Shown: in pieces, positions 8,990 through 17,706 of the stretch
How the letters are laid out: each line of letters begins with the position of its first letter
How positions within the stretch are numbered: the stretch's first letter is position 1
Origin: Zetaproteobacteria bacterium CG_4_9_14_3_um_filter_54_145
GTDB taxonomy: Bacteria > Pseudomonadota > Zetaproteobacteria > Mariprofundales > Mariprofundaceae
Reading direction: 5' to 3'
NCBI GenBank assembly: GCA_002791575.1
Contig: PFXI01000051.1
Location: 1 to 42,253, forward strand
DNA: 42,253 nucleotides
Notes under the pieces: model-generated
Seen by the model: only the letters and a program-made list of their open reading frames with translations
What the model was told of the DNA's origin: nothing
Databases searched by the model: none
Made by a program: the position numbers and the translations under genes

Positions 8990-9259
8990 TTACCGGGTCA
9001 GAGTCGGAATCATTGAAAATATGTCGTGGGTGAATGCTATCATTTTTTCTGTCATCCACGGGGCGGCAAGAATCATGGCGACAAAGACAGCGATGATTTT
9101 GGGCACAAAAGTGAGCGTCATCTCCTGAATCTGGGTGACGGCCTGAAACAGGGAGATGGCGATGCCGACAACCAGCGCAACGCCCAGCATGGGTAGTGAA
9201 ATCATCAACACCAGCCTGAGTGCTTCACTGCCGATTTGAATAACGGAATCAGGATTCAT
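8990..9259 (-). CDS. fliQ: FliQ, flagellar export apparatus membrane protein
   Basis: Exactly 89 residues when started at MNPDSVIQIG (ATG 9257-9259), the normal FliQ size. Two transmembrane helices flank the conserved loop SLFQAVTQIQEMTLTFVPK. A longer ORF from 9304 adds 15 residues encoded by the sigma-54 consensus itself, so it is rejected. The upstream region lacks a clear Shine-Dalgarno. A perfect sigma-54 site ends 11 nt before the ATG, with a predicted transcription start at or within a base of the ATG, which raises the possibility of a leaderless message. Next genes are fliR and flhB. Confidence 0.95.
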   Translation of the reverse strand: MNPDSVIQIGSEALRLVLMISLPMLGVALVVGIAISLFQAVTQIQEMTLTFVPKIIAVFVAMILAAPWMTEKMIAFTHDIFSMIPTLTR

Positions 9260-9269
9260 ACCGTTATTC

Positions 9270-9286
9270 AGCAATCCCCGTGCCAA
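9270..9286 (-). promoter_or_regulatory. Perfect sigma-54 (-24/-12) promoter match before fliQ
   Basis: The minus strand reads TTGGCACG, GGGA, TTGCT, matching the consensus YTGGCACG-N4-TTGCW at every defined position. The C of the -12 element is at 9271, so the predicted start is about 9259, the A of the fliQ ATG. It lies in the 167-bp gap between the kinase gene and fliQ. Sigma-54 control is normal for polar flagellar genes, but whether this match is active is not shown by sequence alone. Confidence 0.65.
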
Positions 9287-9426
9287 TCCCCGGTTTACGC
9301 TCAAATCTAAACAGGTTACTGCATGGGAGGAGCAGCAACCAGGCAGGCGAGTGTTACAGCCGAGGGAGCAGAAACAGGTGGCGGAATGATTGTGCCCGGC
9401 TGCGGCTCATTCTACTGTGCAGCGGC

Positions 9427-12423
9427 TTACTCACTCAGGCACTGGCGCATGATCTGTTGCAGGGCTTCGGGGGTATATGGCTTCTGAATAAAGCCGGCCA
9501 GTATGCCGAAGGCGAACTGATCACCGGTTTCCGTTTCATTGTAGCCGCTTGAAAGAATGACTTTGACGTCCGGATTGATGCAGAGCAGTTCGGCCAGACA
9601 TGCTTTACCATCCATGATCGGCATGGTTAAGTCCAGCAGTACGGCCGCCACCTCCTGCCTGTGTCGGCGGTATAGCTCAACGGCTTCTTCACCGTTGGAC
9701 GCATTGATCGTGTCAAAGCCCATCTCTTCGAGCATGGCGCTGGCAACCTCACGGATGCTCTGTTCATCATCAACGACCAGCACCGTGCCACGCTCGAGCC
9801 AATGTTTGCCGCTATCCTGCCCCCCTTGATCAGGGACACATTGACTTGCGCTGACCGGCAGCAGGACTTTGAAGGTGGTGCCGCGGCCGGGCTCGCTGTA
9901 AACGCGGATGGTTCCATGATGACCGCGCACAATGCCCAGCATTGCACTCATGCCAAGCCCTCTGCCGGTGAATTTGGTGGTGAAAAACGGATCGAACATT
10001 TTTTCCATGGTCGCGGCATCCATACCGCAGCCGTTATCCGAGACCTCCATGTACACATATTCACCTTCATTCAGGGTTTCATTGTTTACCGTGCACTCCA
10101 GATAGGCGCGGTCGGCCTGCATGACCCCGGTGGCAAGTGTGATCATGCCGTTCTTATTGCCGATGGCCTCATTGGCGTTGGTAATCAGATTCAGGATAAC
10201 CTGCTGAATCTGGGCCGTGTCGGCATCGGTCATGGGCAGTGAGTCGCTCAGATCGTAACGGATCACCACATTCTTTTCGATGGAGACCTCCATCAGTCGG
10301 GTCATCTCCTCAATCAGGCTGCTCAGGTTGACCGGTTTGACAATAAAGCGACCTTTGCCTGCATAGGCCAGCATCTGTTTGCACAGGCCGGCTGCCAGCT
10401 GGCTTGATTCTTCAATGCGCGCCAGATAGGGCTTTGCCGGCGCCGTTTCTTCCATGTTGCGCTCAGCCATGGCTGCATTACCCATGATGGCGGTGAGCAG
10501 GTTATTGAAATCGTGTGCGATGCCGCCGGCCAGAATGCCGAGACTCTCCAGTCGCTGCGTATGCTCCAGTTGCTCGCTGTGCCTCTTTTCAGCGGTAATG
10601 TCTCGATCAATACAAACCTGGTGATGCACAACTCCCTGCTCATCCATGATCGGGGAGATACGCCGTGCCACCAGTGTTTTCTCTCCTGCTGGCGGGTGAA
10701 TCGTCATTTCGCCGGACCAGTTTTTTCCGCAACTAATGGTCGATATGATGTCGTGGTGGGTGGCATCACCGTTATGACCACCGCGCAGGCTGGCTGCAGA
10801 GGTGCCGACAAGCGCATCAATCGGTTTTTTGTACAGGGATGCTGCAGCAGGGTTGGTAAATGCGATCTGTCCCTGATTATCCAGAATCATAATGCTTTCA
10901 TTGCTGGCATGAATAGCCTGTTGTAACAGGGTTAACATCGATTCGGCCTGTTTGCGACGGGTAATATCGCGCGCCACCCCTTGCACGGCCACAGCCCTGC
11001 CAGCCTGCATCACCAGGCTGGAGTTGATTTCCAGCGTGTGTCGCTTGCCCTGCATGTCAATGGCGGTCAGCTCATAAACGGTGCTGCCTCCCTGATTGCA
11101 TTTTTGTGTCATCATGGCATGGGCTTTTGCGGCATCTTCAGCCACAATGATGTCGGCAATATTTCTGCCGATGATTTCACCGCCGTAGTTACGTGTGCAC
11201 GTTGCATTGGCAGTGGTGATGGTGCCGTCCAGATCATGGGCGTAAATCATGTCGGAGCTGTGCTCTACAATAGCGGCCAGTTCCAGTTCATGCTCAAGAC
11301 TGGCCTCCAGCTGTTCTTTTCTCCGGCAGCTCTCAATGGCGATGCTTGTCAGGCTGGCAACACTTTCTATCAGTTGAATATCTGCATCAGAAGGTTGACA
11401 GGGCTGGTGATAATAGATGGCGAAGGTGGCCAATACCTTGCCGTCGGCATCGCGAACAGGTTCAGACCAGCATGCCTGCAGACCAAAGGAGAGGGCAGCT
11501 TCACTGTATGCCGCCCACAGCGGGCTGGTGGCAATATCATCGACGATGACCCGCTCGTTGCGAAAGGCAGCAGTGCCACATGAGCCTGTTTGCGGACCGA
11601 TTTCAGCGCCGTCTATGGCCCTGTTCCATGCATCCGGCAGGCTGGGCGCGGCTCCCGCGCACAGATGCTTCTCCTGCGCATCAAGCAGCAATATCGAGGT
11701 CAGCATATCCGGGCGTTGTGCTTCCACACAGCCGGTAATGCTTGCCAGCAGTGTACGCAGGCTGCCATTGTGACGGGCGATGGCATCCAGTATCGAGCGC
11801 TGTAGCTCCAGTATTGTCTGTTGCGCTTTGCTGTTGCTTATCTCCTGCTGCAGGCGGGTGTTGTGTGCTGAGGCCATACGTAATAATTCGGTATTGCGAC
11901 GTGCGAAGATGGTGAGCCCCAGCATGAATAACAGATCGATGATGCCCAGTGTTACATAGATCTGGGATGCCTGAGCAAAGAACCAGACGCCAACCGGCAG
12001 CAGAACCGGTAACATGAATGCATAAAACAGCGGCATGCGGCCCGCGTAGGCATTGCTGCTGGCAGCAACGATACCAACAAGCATGAGGATCAGCAGCATC
12101 TGGTGGTGCGCATCCAGAGCGGGCAGGAACAGCGGCGCTGTCACTCCCCAGCACAGGCCGGCCGCAGCAGTGAGCGACCATTGCAGAGCGTTGTTGTGGC
12201 TCAGTGCCAGGCGAGGCAGCAGGGCAATCAGGCGCAGTGCGCTAATGGCAAAGAGGGTTGCCAGCCAGTAGCCGGGGTGAACGGGCAGTGGCTCAATCCA
12301 GATCGCAGTGGCAAGCAGGGCGGCAATCAGCATGGATATGGCGATAGAAGCAGACATCTGACGGTCGATGGTTGCCATCATATCCGGTTGTTCGCCTATG
12401 GGCATTATTTCGGTGTATCCCAT
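9427..12423 (-). CDS. Hybrid sensor histidine kinase (6 TM, GAF, two PAS, receiver)
   Basis: A 998-residue hybrid kinase. Six transmembrane helices lie at about 25-175, a coiled helix at 185-210, a GAF-like domain at 212-362 (TGSCGTAAFRNERVIVDDIA), PAS domains at about 380-490 and 498-612, then HisKA with H637 in GGIAHDFNNLL. HATPase motifs follow: N box near 741-755, DNGCG 796-800, GRGLGMS 820-826. A C-terminal receiver (about 880-996) has acidic pair DD 885-886, phospho-acceptor D931 and K951. AAGGAG precedes the ATG by 5 nt. It lies between fliP and fliQ, which are normally adjacent. The signal sensed and partner regulator are unknown; a role in motility is inferred only from position. Confidence 0.93.
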   Translation of the reverse strand: MGYTEIMPIGEQPDMMATIDRQMSASIAISMLIAALLATAIWIEPLPVHPGYWLATLFAISALRLIALLPRLALSHNNALQWSLTAAAGLCWGVTAPLFLPALDAHHQMLLILMLVGIVAASSNAYAGRMPLFYAFMLPVLLPVGVWFFAQASQIYVTLGIIDLLFMLGLTIFARRNTELLRMASAHNTRLQQEISNSKAQQTILELQRSILDAIARHNGSLRTLLASITGCVEAQRPDMLTSILLLDAQEKHLCAGAAPSLPDAWNRAIDGAEIGPQTGSCGTAAFRNERVIVDDIATSPLWAAYSEAALSFGLQACWSEPVRDADGKVLATFAIYYHQPCQPSDADIQLIESVASLTSIAIESCRRKEQLEASLEHELELAAIVEHSSDMIYAHDLDGTITTANATCTRNYGGEIIGRNIADIIVAEDAAKAHAMMTQKCNQGGSTVYELTAIDMQGKRHTLEINSSLVMQAGRAVAVQGVARDITRRKQAESMLTLLQQAIHASNESIMILDNQGQIAFTNPAAASLYKKPIDALVGTSAASLRGGHNGDATHHDIISTISCGKNWSGEMTIHPPAGEKTLVARRISPIMDEQGVVHHQVCIDRDITAEKRHSEQLEHTQRLESLGILAGGIAHDFNNLLTAIMGNAAMAERNMEETAPAKPYLARIEESSQLAAGLCKQMLAYAGKGRFIVKPVNLSSLIEEMTRLMEVSIEKNVVIRYDLSDSLPMTDADTAQIQQVILNLITNANEAIGNKNGMITLATGVMQADRAYLECTVNNETLNEGEYVYMEVSDNGCGMDAATMEKMFDPFFTTKFTGRGLGMSAMLGIVRGHHGTIRVYSEPGRGTTFKVLLPVSASQCVPDQGGQDSGKHWLERGTVLVVDDEQSIREVASAMLEEMGFDTINASNGEEAVELYRRHRQEVAAVLLDLTMPIMDGKACLAELLCINPDVKVILSSGYNETETGDQFAFGILAGFIQKPYTPEALQQIMRQCLSE

Positions 12424-12526: not shown

Positions 12527-13273
12527 TTACATACGGAAGCTGGCCAGCAGGTTCGCCGTGATCAAATGCCAGCCATCGACCAGCACGAACAGAATGATTT
12601 TCAGCGGTAGTGAAATCATGACCGGTGGCAGCATCATCATGCCCATACTCATCAGTACACTGGCGACGATCAGATCGAGAACGACAAAGGGGATATAGAT
12701 CAGAAAACCGATCTCAAAGGCAGTCCGCAGCTCGGAAATGACAAAGGAGGGGATCAGCACATGCATCGGCGTATCTTCAGCTTTGGCCGGTTTCTCCAGC
12801 TTTGCCGCACTGAGAAAGAGAATCAGATCATCTTCGCGCGTCTGCTTGAGCATGAAGTCGCGCAGTGGCGCAATGCCGCGCTCAAAGGCTACGGATTGAT
12901 TGATCTGCTCATTCAGGTAGGGCGTTAGCGCCTCGGTGTCAATTTTCTGCCATACCGGCATCATGACGAACATGGTCAGGAACAGGGAGAGGCCGATCAG
13001 AATCTGGTTGGGTGGCGCCTGCTGCGTACCCAGCGCCTGACGCAGGAAGGCAAAGACAATCAGGATGCGCGTGAAGGACGTCATCATCACCAGAATAGAG
13101 GGCGCCAGCGTCAGGATGGTCATCATGGCCAGAATCTTCAGGCCGTTAAACCATGCATCCGGATCGTCGCTCTCGCCAAGACTCATCGACAGGGTGGGGA
13201 TATCTGCAGCCTGAGCCAGATGCGGCAGCAGAAGGCCGGTCAGCATCAGTATCAGCAGTGCAAGCCGGCTCAT
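12527..13273 (-). CDS. fliP: FliP, flagellar export pore protein
   Basis: The 248-residue protein starts with a cleavable-type signal peptide (about 1-22, ending AQA) as usual for FliP. Conserved segments are MMTSFTRILIVFAFLRQALG, PPNQILIGLSLFLTMFVM, LIPSFVISELRTAFEIGF and VLMSMGMMMLPPVMISLPLK, with four transmembrane helices in total. Five FliP subunits build the core of the export pore with FliQ and FliR. It overlaps fliO by 4 nt. A 103-bp gap separates it from the downstream kinase. Confidence 0.97.
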   Translation of the reverse strand: MSRLALLILMLTGLLLPHLAQAADIPTLSMSLGESDDPDAWFNGLKILAMMTILTLAPSILVMMTSFTRILIVFAFLRQALGTQQAPPNQILIGLSLFLTMFVMMPVWQKIDTEALTPYLNEQINQSVAFERGIAPLRDFMLKQTREDDLILFLSAAKLEKPAKAEDTPMHVLIPSFVISELRTAFEIGFLIYIPFVVLDLIVASVLMSMGMMMLPPVMISLPLKIILFVLVDGWHLITANLLASFRM

Positions 13274-13572: not shown

Positions 13573-13866
13573 TCAGGAGAGGCTGCTGATACGGGCCGAA
13601 GCCGGTACGATTTCCGTGATGCGGACACCCAGTTTGTCACCGGTAGAGACCACTTCACCCTTGGCAAAAATACTGCCGTTAGCGAGAATCTGTACTTCGG
13701 CGTTGGCTTCCTTGTTCATCTCAATGACCATGCCTCGATTCAGGCGTGCAATCATATGCAAGGGGAGTTTGATCCGTCCTAGTTCCACGCTGATCTCCAG
13801 CGGTACATGCATAATGGCCTCGAGATTGGCTGATTGTGAATGGTCTGTGGTTGTTTCGTTGCTCAT
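13573..13866 (-). CDS. fliN: FliN, flagellar motor switch protein
   Basis: A 97-residue SpoA-domain protein: VPLEISVELGRIKLPL, then NRGMVIEMNKEANAEVQILANG and FAKGEVVSTGDKLGVRITEIV. It lacks the long N-terminal extension of enteric FliN. FliN forms the bottom of the C-ring with FliM and docks FliH during export. Start ATG overlaps the fliM TGA by one base. Confidence 0.95.
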   Translation of the reverse strand: MSNETTTDHSQSANLEAIMHVPLEISVELGRIKLPLHMIARLNRGMVIEMNKEANAEVQILANGSIFAKGEVVSTGDKLGVRITEIVPASARISSLS

Positions 13867-14855
13867 CAGATGCCTCCGGGTTGTGCAGGTTCGATAATTT
13901 CAGCTGCCAGATGACCATCTTTTTCACCTGGTCTGGCCTGAAACAGCGGGATCTCATCGATCCACAGTGAACAGGGGTCATTGGCGCGTGTGCTCAGGGG
14001 TAAAAAATCACCCGGTTTCATTTCGAGAAATGCACCGATATTAATCTGGCAGCGACCCAGCTCGAAACGCAGTGCTGCCGGTGTTTTGGATAGCTGCTGG
14101 ATAAGGCTGTCCGTCCACTCAGAGTCGTTGTCTACTGTGTCATCAGTGACGGTAACGCGCAGAACATCCAGCATAGGTTCCAGAAAGGGGCGGGGATAAT
14201 AGATGCCCATCTGACCTTCCAGATCCTCGCTCAGTTTGATATCAAAAAAGGTCGAAAAGCAGTGCTCCATGGCACTGGTTACGGCCAGAAATTGCGGGTC
14301 GTAATCCAGCTTGTAGAGCTCGAACTCAATCGGAAATACTGGCCGCCATAGCTCGCCCAGGGTTTTGATCAATTTGTCTGCAATGCGTTCGGACAGACGT
14401 AACTCAACTGCCGAGAGTGTCTGTGGACTATCGCTGGCTTCGCCAGTGCCTCCGAGCATGGCATCAACAAAGGCCACAATCAGCGCGGTGTCGAAGCTGA
14501 CAAGCATGCGCCCGTAGCTGTCGGCTTCGAATACAAAATAGACCTGCGGTGTATCTACGGCGATGATATCTTTATAGAACAGGCTTTCCATGCTGCTGAC
14601 CTGCAGGGAAATATCCCGTTTGAACAGCTCGTTCCACTGTTCATCCAGCATTTCAACCAGCCTCTCCTGTAGATTGACGAACATAGGATAGCGTTGCGGT
14701 GTATCCTCATCGCCGGCGTCGAAACGATAGGGTTTGACATGCTCAGGTTGCTTTACCGGTGGCAGCGAGGCAAATATGGCCTCGGTCTGCTCGGCCGGTG
14801 CCACTTCCGCCATCAGTGCTTCTATCTCTTCGGGTGCCAGTATCGGTTCGCTCAT
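13866..14855 (-). CDS. fliM: FliM, flagellar motor switch protein
   Basis: The 329-residue protein has the N-terminal CheY-P-binding helix (APEEIEALM, residues 7-15), a CheC-like middle domain (about 45-230, with GRMLVSFDTALIVAFVDAMLGG) and a C-terminal SpoA domain (about 245-320). It receives CheY-P and reverses the motor. Length and order are typical; it is followed by fliN with a 1-nt overlap and starts 14 bp after fliL. Confidence 0.96.
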   Translation of the reverse strand: MSEPILAPEEIEALMAEVAPAEQTEAIFASLPPVKQPEHVKPYRFDAGDEDTPQRYPMFVNLQERLVEMLDEQWNELFKRDISLQVSSMESLFYKDIIAVDTPQVYFVFEADSYGRMLVSFDTALIVAFVDAMLGGTGEASDSPQTLSAVELRLSERIADKLIKTLGELWRPVFPIEFELYKLDYDPQFLAVTSAMEHCFSTFFDIKLSEDLEGQMGIYYPRPFLEPMLDVLRVTVTDDTVDNDSEWTDSLIQQLSKTPAALRFELGRCQINIGAFLEMKPGDFLPLSTRANDPCSLWIDEIPLFQARPGEKDGHLAAEIIEPAQPGGI

Positions 14856-14869
14856 CGTTTGCTCCGTAG

Positions 14870-15385
14870 CTACTGGGATACAAAGTCCGTAAAATAGAGG
14901 TTCTTAATCGGTTTTCCTCCGATAATACGGTTGAGCCTGTACACCATATCTTCTTTCAGAGCGTATTTTCCCTGTGGCGTGCGAATATCAGCAAATGTCT
15001 TGCTGGCCAGCAGCGTGATAATCAGATCATTCACCTTGACCATATTCTCGGTTACCTTGGCCTGAGCCTCTTCGCTGCGCACTTCCAGTTTGATTTTTGC
15101 GCGCAGAAAACGACTCTCTTCGACATCGGCCAGATTGACGGTGATATCGTCGATATCCATCATGATCGGTGGTCCGGTCTCTTCATCCTCGGCTTCCGGG
15201 ATGGTTGTGGCATCGGTTTGCGTGACAGCAGCTTTATCCGTGGTTGTCGACGACTGCTCCATATTGAGCAGTTTCCAGGCTACAAAACCACCAACGGCCA
15301 ATACAAGTACAAGCAGTACCAGATTAATAATCGGTAGCAGGCCGCCGGAAGACTTCTCTTTTACTTCTTTCTCTGCATCAGCCAT
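14870..15385 (-). CDS. fliL: FliL, stator-associated basal body protein
   Basis: A 171-residue single-pass protein: short cytoplasmic head, transmembrane helix at about 15-36 (LPIINLVLLVLVLAVGGFVAW), an acidic Thr-rich linker, then the periplasmic FliL domain (about 70-171, FLRAKIKLEVRSEEAQAKV). FliL forms rings round stator units and affects torque. GAGGAG precedes the ATG. It follows the second motB by 69 bp, which fits a stator-related function. Confidence 0.93.
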   Translation of the reverse strand: MADAEKEVKEKSSGGLLPIINLVLLVLVLAVGGFVAWKLLNMEQSSTTTDKAAVTQTDATTIPEAEDEETGPPIMMDIDDITVNLADVEESRFLRAKIKLEVRSEEAQAKVTENMVKVNDLIITLLASKTFADIRTPQGKYALKEDMVYRLNRIIGGKPIKNLYFTDFVSQ

Positions 15386-15454: not shown

Positions 15455-16153
15455 TTACTTGTAGACCATGATCTCTACCCGTCGGTTCTTGCTGCGCCCG
15501 AACGGTGTGGCTTCGGTAGAAATGGGCTGGGAGGGGCCATAGCCTGCCAGCGATAACCGGGCAGGGCTGACGCCCTCATCTTCGAGTATATGCAAGACTG
15601 ATGCCGCTCTGGCCAGAGAGAGGCTCCATGGGTCATCAAAGGCACTGTTATCCATGTCCAAATTGGCATTGGTATGGCCCTGTACACGAATATTGCCCGG
15701 TGACATGGCCAGCATCTGGGCGAGTCTCGTCAGTGCTTTGACGCTATCCGGTTTCAGTGTCGCACTGCCTTCATCAAACAGAATGGCATCGGGGATGCGC
15801 AGATAGAGGCGGTCATTGACGATGACACCCCTCACTTTGTGATCCAGTACGCTGTTTCTCATGATTGCCCGACTGTTCTGGCGCATAGCCAGCATCAACT
15901 CGCGCGGTGAGACCATTTTTTGCATCTGCATGGGTGGAATGATCTGCAGTTCGGTTTTGTCGCCGGAGTTGAGGACGGATACCGCCTTGCGGAATGATGA
16001 TTCGACATCGGATAGTCCGGTTTTGTCCATTGTGGACATCGAAATCAGCAGAATGAAAAAGGTGAGCATCAGGCTGACCAGATCGGCAAAGGTGGTCATC
16101 CATGCTTCGGTGTTCGGCGCGTACTCAACGGGCCATTTTTTCTTTTTGGCCAT
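15455..16153 (-). CDS. motB: MotB/PomB-type stator protein, second paralogue (canonical Asp)
   Basis: A 232-residue MotB-family protein. The transmembrane helix (residues 18-38, TTFADLVSLMLTFFILL) carries the expected ion-binding aspartate D24. The C-terminal OmpA-like domain (about 115-230) ends in NRRVEIMV. In the peptidoglycan-binding motif the usual GHTD reads GHTN. Its start overlaps the stop of the first motB as TAATG. With MotA it would form the ion-driven stator. The ADLVSLMLTFFILL helix looks more like sodium-type PomB than enteric MotB, but the coupling ion cannot be decided from this. Confidence 0.9.
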   Translation of the reverse strand: MAKKKKWPVEYAPNTEAWMTTFADLVSLMLTFFILLISMSTMDKTGLSDVESSFRKAVSVLNSGDKTELQIIPPMQMQKMVSPRELMLAMRQNSRAIMRNSVLDHKVRGVIVNDRLYLRIPDAILFDEGSATLKPDSVKALTRLAQMLAMSPGNIRVQGHTNANLDMDNSAFDDPWSLSLARAASVLHILEDEGVSPARLSLAGYGPSQPISTEATPFGRSKNRRVEIMVYK

Positions 16154-16926
16154 TACATCTTCCCCGGTTGTGAGACTACCGAGTGTTGCAGTTGCTGCTG
16201 AGGGCCTTTGTTTTCATGATTGACCTTATCGGTAACCGGACGGAATTTCAGTGTGATGTCGACGCGGCGTGAAAGTTCTTCATGACCCTTGACCGGGTGC
16301 AGGTCCCCCATGCCGGCAGTAATCATGCGGCCTCTGGGGACACCTCTCTCTTCCAGAGCATGAAAGACAGTCATGGCACGTGCAGCAGAGAGTTCCCAGT
16401 TGGATGCATATTCACTGCCGCGGGTCGGTGTCGCATCGGTGTGGCCTTCGATCTGGATCTCTATGATTTCCGGTTTCAGAAAGGTGATGGCGAGTTTGTC
16501 GATAAAGGCGAGCGCCTCGGGTGAGAGGTCTACATGGCCGCTGGCAAAGGCGATATGATCCGGGAAGCGGATAAGCAGGGTCTCCTTATCCAGCGGCATC
16601 ACGTGTATGGCGTCACCTTTACCCAGCTCCTTGGCCGCATCTGTCAATTCCTTGGCGGTTCGTTTTGGCGCAGTTGACCCGTCGACAACGGAGCGTGCCG
16701 GCAGGGCGGGGCCGTCACCTTTGGCAAGGTTCGCGCCGCGGGGCATGGGATTGAATGTGCCTGCCAATGAGCCGATAGCGGCCAGACGTTTGTCATCGAC
16801 AATGACGGCATAGGAGGTCAGCAGAATGAAAAAGGCCAGCATCTGCATCATCAACTCGAGAAACAGGGCTGCTCCAGGATCCGAAGGGAACGGGAGTGGT
16901 GCAGGTTTTTTATCGCGCTTGGCCAT
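16153..16926 (-). CDS. MotB-like stator protein, first paralogue (Glu at ion site)
   Basis: A 257-residue MotB-family protein with one transmembrane helix (about 19-40, LFLELMMQMLAFFILLTS) and a C-terminal OmpA-like domain that has an intact GHTDATP motif and SRRVDITL. The helix aligns without gaps to the second paralogue, and the ion-binding Asp is replaced by Glu at residue 24. The codon is GAG, and the aromatic W before it is also lost. A 27-residue polar tail extends beyond the OmpA domain. It sits between motA and the canonical motB. It may form heteromeric stators or serve as an accessory; function is not established. Confidence 0.85.
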   Translation of the reverse strand: MAKRDKKPAPLPFPSDPGAALFLELMMQMLAFFILLTSYAVIVDDKRLAAIGSLAGTFNPMPRGANLAKGDGPALPARSVVDGSTAPKRTAKELTDAAKELGKGDAIHVMPLDKETLLIRFPDHIAFASGHVDLSPEALAFIDKLAITFLKPEIIEIQIEGHTDATPTRGSEYASNWELSAARAMTVFHALEERGVPRGRMITAGMGDLHPVKGHEELSRRVDITLKFRPVTDKVNHENKGPQQQLQHSVVSQPGKM

Positions 16927-16947: not shown

Positions 16948-17706
16948 TTATTCAAAAGAGGATTTGCGATCTTTTGGTGGTAAATATCCGAGCAGCTTCT
17001 GCTCCATAATGCGCGGATTCTCGCCAACTACCAGTGACTGGACGCCGACCAGGATGATTTCATGCACCAGCATCTCCTGTTTGCTGCGGTTCTTTAACTT
17101 TCCGGACATGGGCAGGAACAGGATGTTGGCCATCAGCGCGCCGTAGAAGGTGGTCAGCAGGGCGATTGACATGGAGGGGCCGATGGATGATGGGTCGGAC
17201 ATATTTTGCAGCATCAGTACCAGGCCGACCAGCGTGCCGATCATGCCCATGGATGGGGCATAGGTACCAAGTGCGGTGAACATATCGGAACCTACCGAAT
17301 GCCGTTCGGCGATTTTATCCATCTCCATGGTCAGTATATCTTCAATGACCCTTGGCTCCTGGCCGTCAATAGCCATTTGCAGGCCTTTTGCCATGAATTT
17401 GTTGTCGATGTTTGTGACTTCGCTTTCCAGTGCAAGGATACCATCCTTGCGTACTGTCTGAGCCAGCTCTACCAGTTTGGCAATGACATCGGAGCCTGTG
17501 TCGACCTTGTACATAAACGTCTTCATCACCACGCCAATGACGCTGAGGGCCGTTTTCAGCGGATAGCCGACCAGCAGTACGCCGACTGTGCCGCCGATGA
17601 CGATCAGCATGGATGGCGGATCGATAAAGCTTGATATGCCGCCGCCGATGGCGGATACGACAAGTCCAAATGCAAGCAGTATGCCGATGATTGTTGCTAT
17701 ATCCAC
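16948..17706 (-). CDS. motA: MotA/PomA-type stator protein
   Basis: The 252-residue protein has four transmembrane helices (about 5-24, 30-50, 150-172, 180-200) and the conserved segment GTYAPSMGMIGTLVGLVLML before helix 3, plus ALLTTFYGALMANILFLP. It is of the PomA-like size. The start codon is GTG (17706), with GGAGG 6 nt upstream. MotA pentamers rotate around MotB dimers and drive the C-ring. Two different motB genes follow this single motA. Confidence 0.95.
   Translation of the reverse strand: MDIATIIGILLAFGLVVSAIGGGISSFIDPPSMLIVIGGTVGVLLVGYPLKTALSVIGVVMKTFMYKVDTGSDVIAKLVELAQTVRKDGILALESEVTNIDNKFMAKGLQMAIDGQEPRVIEDILTMEMDKIAERHSVGSDMFTALGTYAPSMGMIGTLVGLVLMLQNMSDPSSIGPSMSIALLTTFYGALMANILFLPMSGKLKNRSKQEMLVHEIILVGVQSLVVGENPRIMEQKLLGYLPPKDRKSSFE

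Follow-up and report, generated by a model that had tools for sequence, protein, structure and literature searches.

The flagellar stators of known structure, MotA5MotB2 and PomA5PomB2 (6YSF, 8BRD and 8BRI), contain two identical B subunits, both of which carry the ion-binding aspartate, an acidic residue regarded as indispensable for ion flow. One A-type gene accompanied by two B-type genes is found in the AglR-AglQ-AglS gliding motor of Myxococcus, although AglQ and AglS are ExbD/TolR-type proteins that both have the conserved aspartate and the motor drives no flagellum; whether they form a heterodimer is stated as unknown in a review (PMC9389320). In the open-access literature, the only paper on two motB genes that we found concerns Aquifex aeolicus, in which one motA is followed by two motB genes in a single operon. 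The transmembrane and N-terminal regions of these two MotBs are 97% identical, with residue 20 (Gly or Ser) as the lone difference (Takekawa 2015, PMC4525482). A glutamate at the ion site has been studied in engineered D24E and D33E variants of an unpaired MotB, made in the laboratory, which lower motility (PMC6663468, PMC4030992). Asp-to-Glu stators of Salmonella keep about half of the stall torque and lose 90% of the low-load speed (PMC4030992), and in Borrelia the Asp-to-Glu mutant is less motile and the Asp-to-Asn mutant non-motile (PMC6663468). Our search of the open-access literature found no paper on a natural MotB partner that lacks the aspartate.

The window, by which we mean the whole 42,253-nucleotide stretch of DNA analysed here, contains a minus-strand run of genes that we read from its open reading frames as motA, motB1 (encoding B1), motB2 (encoding B2) and fliL-, fliM-, fliN-, fliO- and fliP-like genes. 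The features on which the comparison depends are as follows.

16948..17706, minus strand: motA/pomA-like stator A subunit with a GTG start and matches to PF01618 and MotA_N
16153..16926, minus strand: motB1 (B1, 257 amino acids), with Glu24 and an intact GHTD/SNW/R peptidoglycan signature
16855..16857, minus strand: B1 Glu24 codon (GAG), aligned with the established ion-binding aspartate
16435..16437, minus strand: B1 Asp164 codon, the aspartate of GHTD (conserved as Asp in all 56 class orthologues)
15455..16153, minus strand: motB2 (B2, 232 amino acids), with plug and OmpA domains, Asp24 at the ion site and a decayed peptidoglycan signature (SNW without its Asn; GHTN)
16082..16084, minus strand: B2 Asp24 codon (Asp in every one of the 55 class orthologues)
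15668..15670, minus strand: B2 Asn162 codon (GHTN), read from the sequence
14870..15385, minus strand: fliL-like gene, the next after motB2, assigned from sequence and position
13866..14855, minus strand: fliM-like gene, assigned from sequence and position

The sequence TAATG joins the B1 stop to the B2 start, and base 16153 is common to both genes. The initial annotation had described two overlapping tandem motB genes behind one motA, the first with Glu24 (GAG) and GHTD and the second with Asp24 and GHTN, and each of these particulars was confirmed at its position. The MotA protein matched solved MotA and PomA over its full length (E values of 1e-61 to 1e-60), and PomA is its nearest named family, although its score against the PRK08990 PomA model (276 bits) falls under that model's cut-off of 341.

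B2 contains the plug (MotB_plug, E 5e-17) and OmpA (E 2e-16) domains of Pfam, matches solved MotB and PomB, and has its residue 24 aligned with Asp24 of solved PomB. B1 contains the OmpA domain (PF00691, E 7e-16), its MotB_plug score of 21.5 bits lies just short of the 24-bit cut-off, and it matches solved MotB (6YSF) over its full length, with Glu24 aligned to the ion-site aspartate. An AlphaFold model of the B1 monomer (pLDDT 69, from a 12-row alignment) has a helix at residues 17-41, an OmpA-like domain and a low-confidence short helix at residues 46-55. As would be expected of a MotB, B1 is encoded immediately after motA within a flagellar operon and carries an OmpA-like domain with GHTD...SNW...R, but its transmembrane helix lacks the aspartate that B2 has; in B2, the aspartate of GHTD is replaced by asparagine. 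The two transmembrane helices diverge at and near the ion site, unlike the near-identical transmembrane regions of the Aquifex MotBs, which share one and the same ion site. This comparison with Aquifex comes from the literature, as the data searched contained no A. aeolicus and left Aquificota unsampled. B1 differs from the engineered Asp-to-Glu proteins in that its glutamate occurs in nature, is conserved and comes with an aspartate-bearing partner. B1 and B2 are only 28% identical and fall into separate groups across phyla, which argues against a recent duplication, and a sequencing or frame error as the cause of Glu24 can be dismissed, since the reading frames are open and the state is common to 55 loci.

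We searched 299 genomes of the window's phylum for B1 orthologues and found strong ones confined to the window's own order; the named relatives with B1 are Zetaproteobacteria, marine iron oxidisers that include Mariprofundus ferrooxydans PV-1. The pair was kept in all 55 readable class loci, and the order motA, B1, B2 was constant in the class loci read, contig ends apart. In 53 of the 55 loci, the gap between B1 and B2 lay within the range of -1 to +6 nucleotides, and in 25 it was exactly -1. The ion site of B1 is Glu in 51 of the 55 class orthologues and Gln in the other 4, so that Glu24 is no chance variant, and the ion site of B2 is Asp in all 55. B1 also retains its wall-binding signature throughout the class (Asp, Asn and Trp each in 56/56, Arg in 55/55). 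B2 has lost the asparagine of SNW in 54 of 54 orthologues, with Pro in its place in 42, and has kept the arginine in all 54. At the GHTD aspartate, it has D in 28, N in 19, S in 6 and G in 1. GHTN itself is found chiefly in the genus to which the window belongs, and we reject it as the conserved counterpart of Glu24. Within B1, the transmembrane helix is the most conserved segment (mean pairwise identity 93%), followed by the plug (79%) and the OmpA domain (63%). With dN/dS values of 0.035-0.13 in ten close pairs, B1 is under strong purifying selection. Among 22 genomes of at least 91% completeness, searched at E 1e-5, the pair locus holds the sole detected MotA in nine, one of which has Gln in B1.

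When the B1 alignment was run against 84,980 species genomes, the matches listed led to further motA-motB-motB loci with a non-acidic first MotB in Nitrospirota and Desulfobacterota; the other phyla sampled are those reached in this way. A follow-up search of Nitrospirota found the pair in 5 of 198 genomes, with Ser or Ala in the first MotB, and in Desulfobacterota, the phylum of a Desulfobacteraceae genome, it was present in at least 23 of 297 sampled genomes. Among 35 loci outside the class, the first gene has Ser in 16, Ala in 9, Gly in 6 and Asn, Thr and Asp in one each, one being cut, and the second gene has Asp in all 34 that are readable. Asp-less first MotBs in loci L149-L153 (Nitrospirota) and L257-L275 (Desulfobacterota) have conserved helices such as VMMVSLNLILVIFFVYLNS and MTALSMILLAFFIVM. 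These proteins share with B1 the first place in motA-motB-motB, the missing ion-site aspartate and a plug signature like ALGSLAGTF..LP.G, which was drawn from an alignment of Zetaproteobacteria, Nitrospirota and Desulfobacterota and is not clear in the Gly-type rows. In one genome (L261), the first MotB carries Asn, and MotB mutants of E. coli and Borrelia with this residue are non-motile. Several Desulfobacterota loci continue into fliL and fliM like the window, whereas fliL and fliM do not adjoin the pair in the two Nitrospirota loci read.

Altogether, 88 loci from three phyla have a first gene without the ion-site aspartate and, where readable, a second gene with it, and never the reverse. 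Many of the loci outside the window come from draft assemblies, and the loci counted are not independent observations. What generally holds is loss of the aspartate in the first gene, glutamate being peculiar to one lineage. In single MotBs sampled across many phyla, the ion site is Asp in 60 of 60 and the wall-binding signature almost unbroken (D in 59, N in 60 and R in 60), and with every readable second MotB of a pair also carrying Asp, the view of this residue as near-invariant was upheld. The proposed glutamate-aspartate pair holds in 51 of the 55 class loci and gives way to a first gene without glutamate in the other phyla. Two findings that the initial annotation had named as weighing against it were looked for: the pair is not limited to this genome, and an aspartate in the first gene occurs in none of the 55 class loci and in one outside the class, L239 of Desulfovibrio sp. 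UBA6079, which has Asp in both MotBs. Its suggestion of something other than a simple spare copy is supported by the spread of the pair over the class and two more phyla, the close coupling of the genes, the purifying selection and the genomes in which this locus has the sole MotA detected.

A tree built from 143 MotB rows unites 38 first genes without the aspartate and the Desulfovibrio protein in one group (SH-aLRT 83), and 37 second genes form another group (87); MotA proteins from pair loci also cluster (87). The aspartate in the L239 first gene may be ancestral or a reversal. After removal of the transmembrane columns, the second genes still cluster (89/76), and a single first-gene clade is not recovered, yet not rejected (p-AU 0.36); on this tree, the ion-site state requires at least three changes. 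The simplest reading is that B1 and B2 split anciently and were retained as a pair, with one or a few losses of the aspartate on the B1 side. Loci L101 and L145 (Elusimicrobiota) and L240 (Pseudodesulfovibrio) have Asp in both MotBs, fall outside the B1 and B2 groups and were set aside as separate tandem duplications; L242, with a first gene cut before the ion site, was excluded on the same ground. A different grouping occurs in the Nitrospirota locus L156 (genome G491), where a 223-amino-acid Asp-less MotB-like protein lies beside a 450-amino-acid open reading frame with MotB and OmpA matches. The cluster continues with another motA-motB, an unusual assembly of OmpA-domain proteins.

From these sequences, we infer that motA-motB1-motB2 encodes a stator with unlike B subunits, which would most plausibly be built, on a balance that tips modestly in its favour, from five MotA, one B1 and one B2. 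B2 would supply the sole full ion-binding aspartate and drive MotA rotation. B1, whose ion site is neutral, Glu or Gln and which would therefore carry no ion or carry it slowly, would contribute the second transmembrane helix and the plug. A neutral residue in B1 could mimic a permanently filled ion site, and the glutamate of Zetaproteobacteria could act as a weak second one. In Zetaproteobacteria, B1 would also be the main peptidoglycan anchor. The GHTD aspartate and the arginine of B1 and B2 are presumably the counterparts of D271 and R286 in Acinetobacter OmpA, as judged from family knowledge and motif spacing. Both of these residues are critical for diaminopimelate binding (PMC6572160).

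If five MotA enclosed a B1:B2 dimer, this would account for the complementary decay of the two proteins, the coupling of their genes and the conservation of the B1 helix, which is the most conserved segment of B1, as expected of a segment inside MotA. The complementary losses in Zetaproteobacteria, of the ion-site aspartate in B1 and of wall-binding residues in B2, would leave neither homodimer intact for both tasks. The divided labour suggested at the outset is partly borne out, with the wall residues intact in B1 and, in B2 of this class, the SNW asparagine lost in every orthologue and the GHTD aspartate in 26 of 54, but GHTN is mostly a feature of one genus and B2 outside Zetaproteobacteria mostly keeps its wall-binding residues. 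Because the GHTD aspartate is present in 15 of 17 of those proteins, complementarity in anchoring is not general. Counted against a heterodimer are also the aspartates in both genes of L239 and the failure to recover a single first-gene clade without transmembrane columns. By analogy with the Asp-to-Asn MotBs that are non-motile in Borrelia and E. coli (PMC6663468), a unit with one aspartate may need compensation. By extension of the 5:2 model (PMC9389320), one revolution might take about 5 ions instead of 10. That the pairs in at least three phyla form a widespread and so far unrecognised stator class, an obligately asymmetric MotA5-B1-B2 with a single active aspartate and about half the ions per turn, is a tentative extension, somewhat less likely than not.

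Alternatively, the working stator could consist of MotA and B2 homodimers, with B1 in a separate non-conducting complex, together with MotA or alone, that serves assembly, holds places or tunes the active units. We consider this unlikely, though worth keeping in mind: most B1 orthologues outside the class have a neutral residue, a pattern that also suits the earlier idea of an inactive or tuning partner, B2 lacks nothing required for ion flow or, in the other phyla, for anchoring, and Borrelia D24N stators partly assemble around the motor (PMC6663468). However, B2 homodimers of Zetaproteobacteria, without their wall-binding residues, should anchor poorly, and the extreme conservation of a B1 helix that has lost one side chain suggests a role inside the pore. 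There is little to recommend B1 as a slower ion-carrying MotB that forms MotA-B1 homodimers with Glu as a low-speed stator beside MotA-B2. The glutamate is kept almost throughout the class and engineered Asp-to-Glu MotB still functions, at a reduced level, in Salmonella, E. coli and Borrelia (PMC4030992, PMC6663468), but four relatives have Gln, including one in which the pair locus has the sole MotA detected, and the other phyla have Ser, Ala, Gly, Asn or Thr. A place for B1 outside the MotA pentamer, for instance as a wall-bound scaffold near FliL, is improbable, for although its peptidoglycan signature is intact and fliL adjoins the pair in the window and in Desulfobacterota, the conservation of helix and plug is hard to explain without contact to MotA, and the two Nitrospirota loci read have no adjoining fliL.

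A B1:B2 stator would bear on how stators are surveyed and modelled. In a 2025 phylogeny of stators, the gene immediately following motA was treated as encoding the B subunit (PMC12505986), and surveys built on such a rule would select the Asp-less protein and overlook the second MotB. In 5:2 stator models, the aspartates of two identical MotBs alternate; a natural unlike pair makes the need for both sites testable, and would also allow tests of the number of ions per revolution and of anchoring and ion transport on separate chains.

The window's genome also has a single motA-motB pair with Asp (L067, at G000:C49:21500-25500), whose MotA is of a different type (31% identical) and which occurs in several, but not all, relatives. 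Inside the flagellar run of the window itself, between fliP (12527-13273) and fliQ (8990-9304), sits a 998-amino-acid open reading frame (9427-12423, minus strand) that resembles a hybrid sensor histidine kinase.
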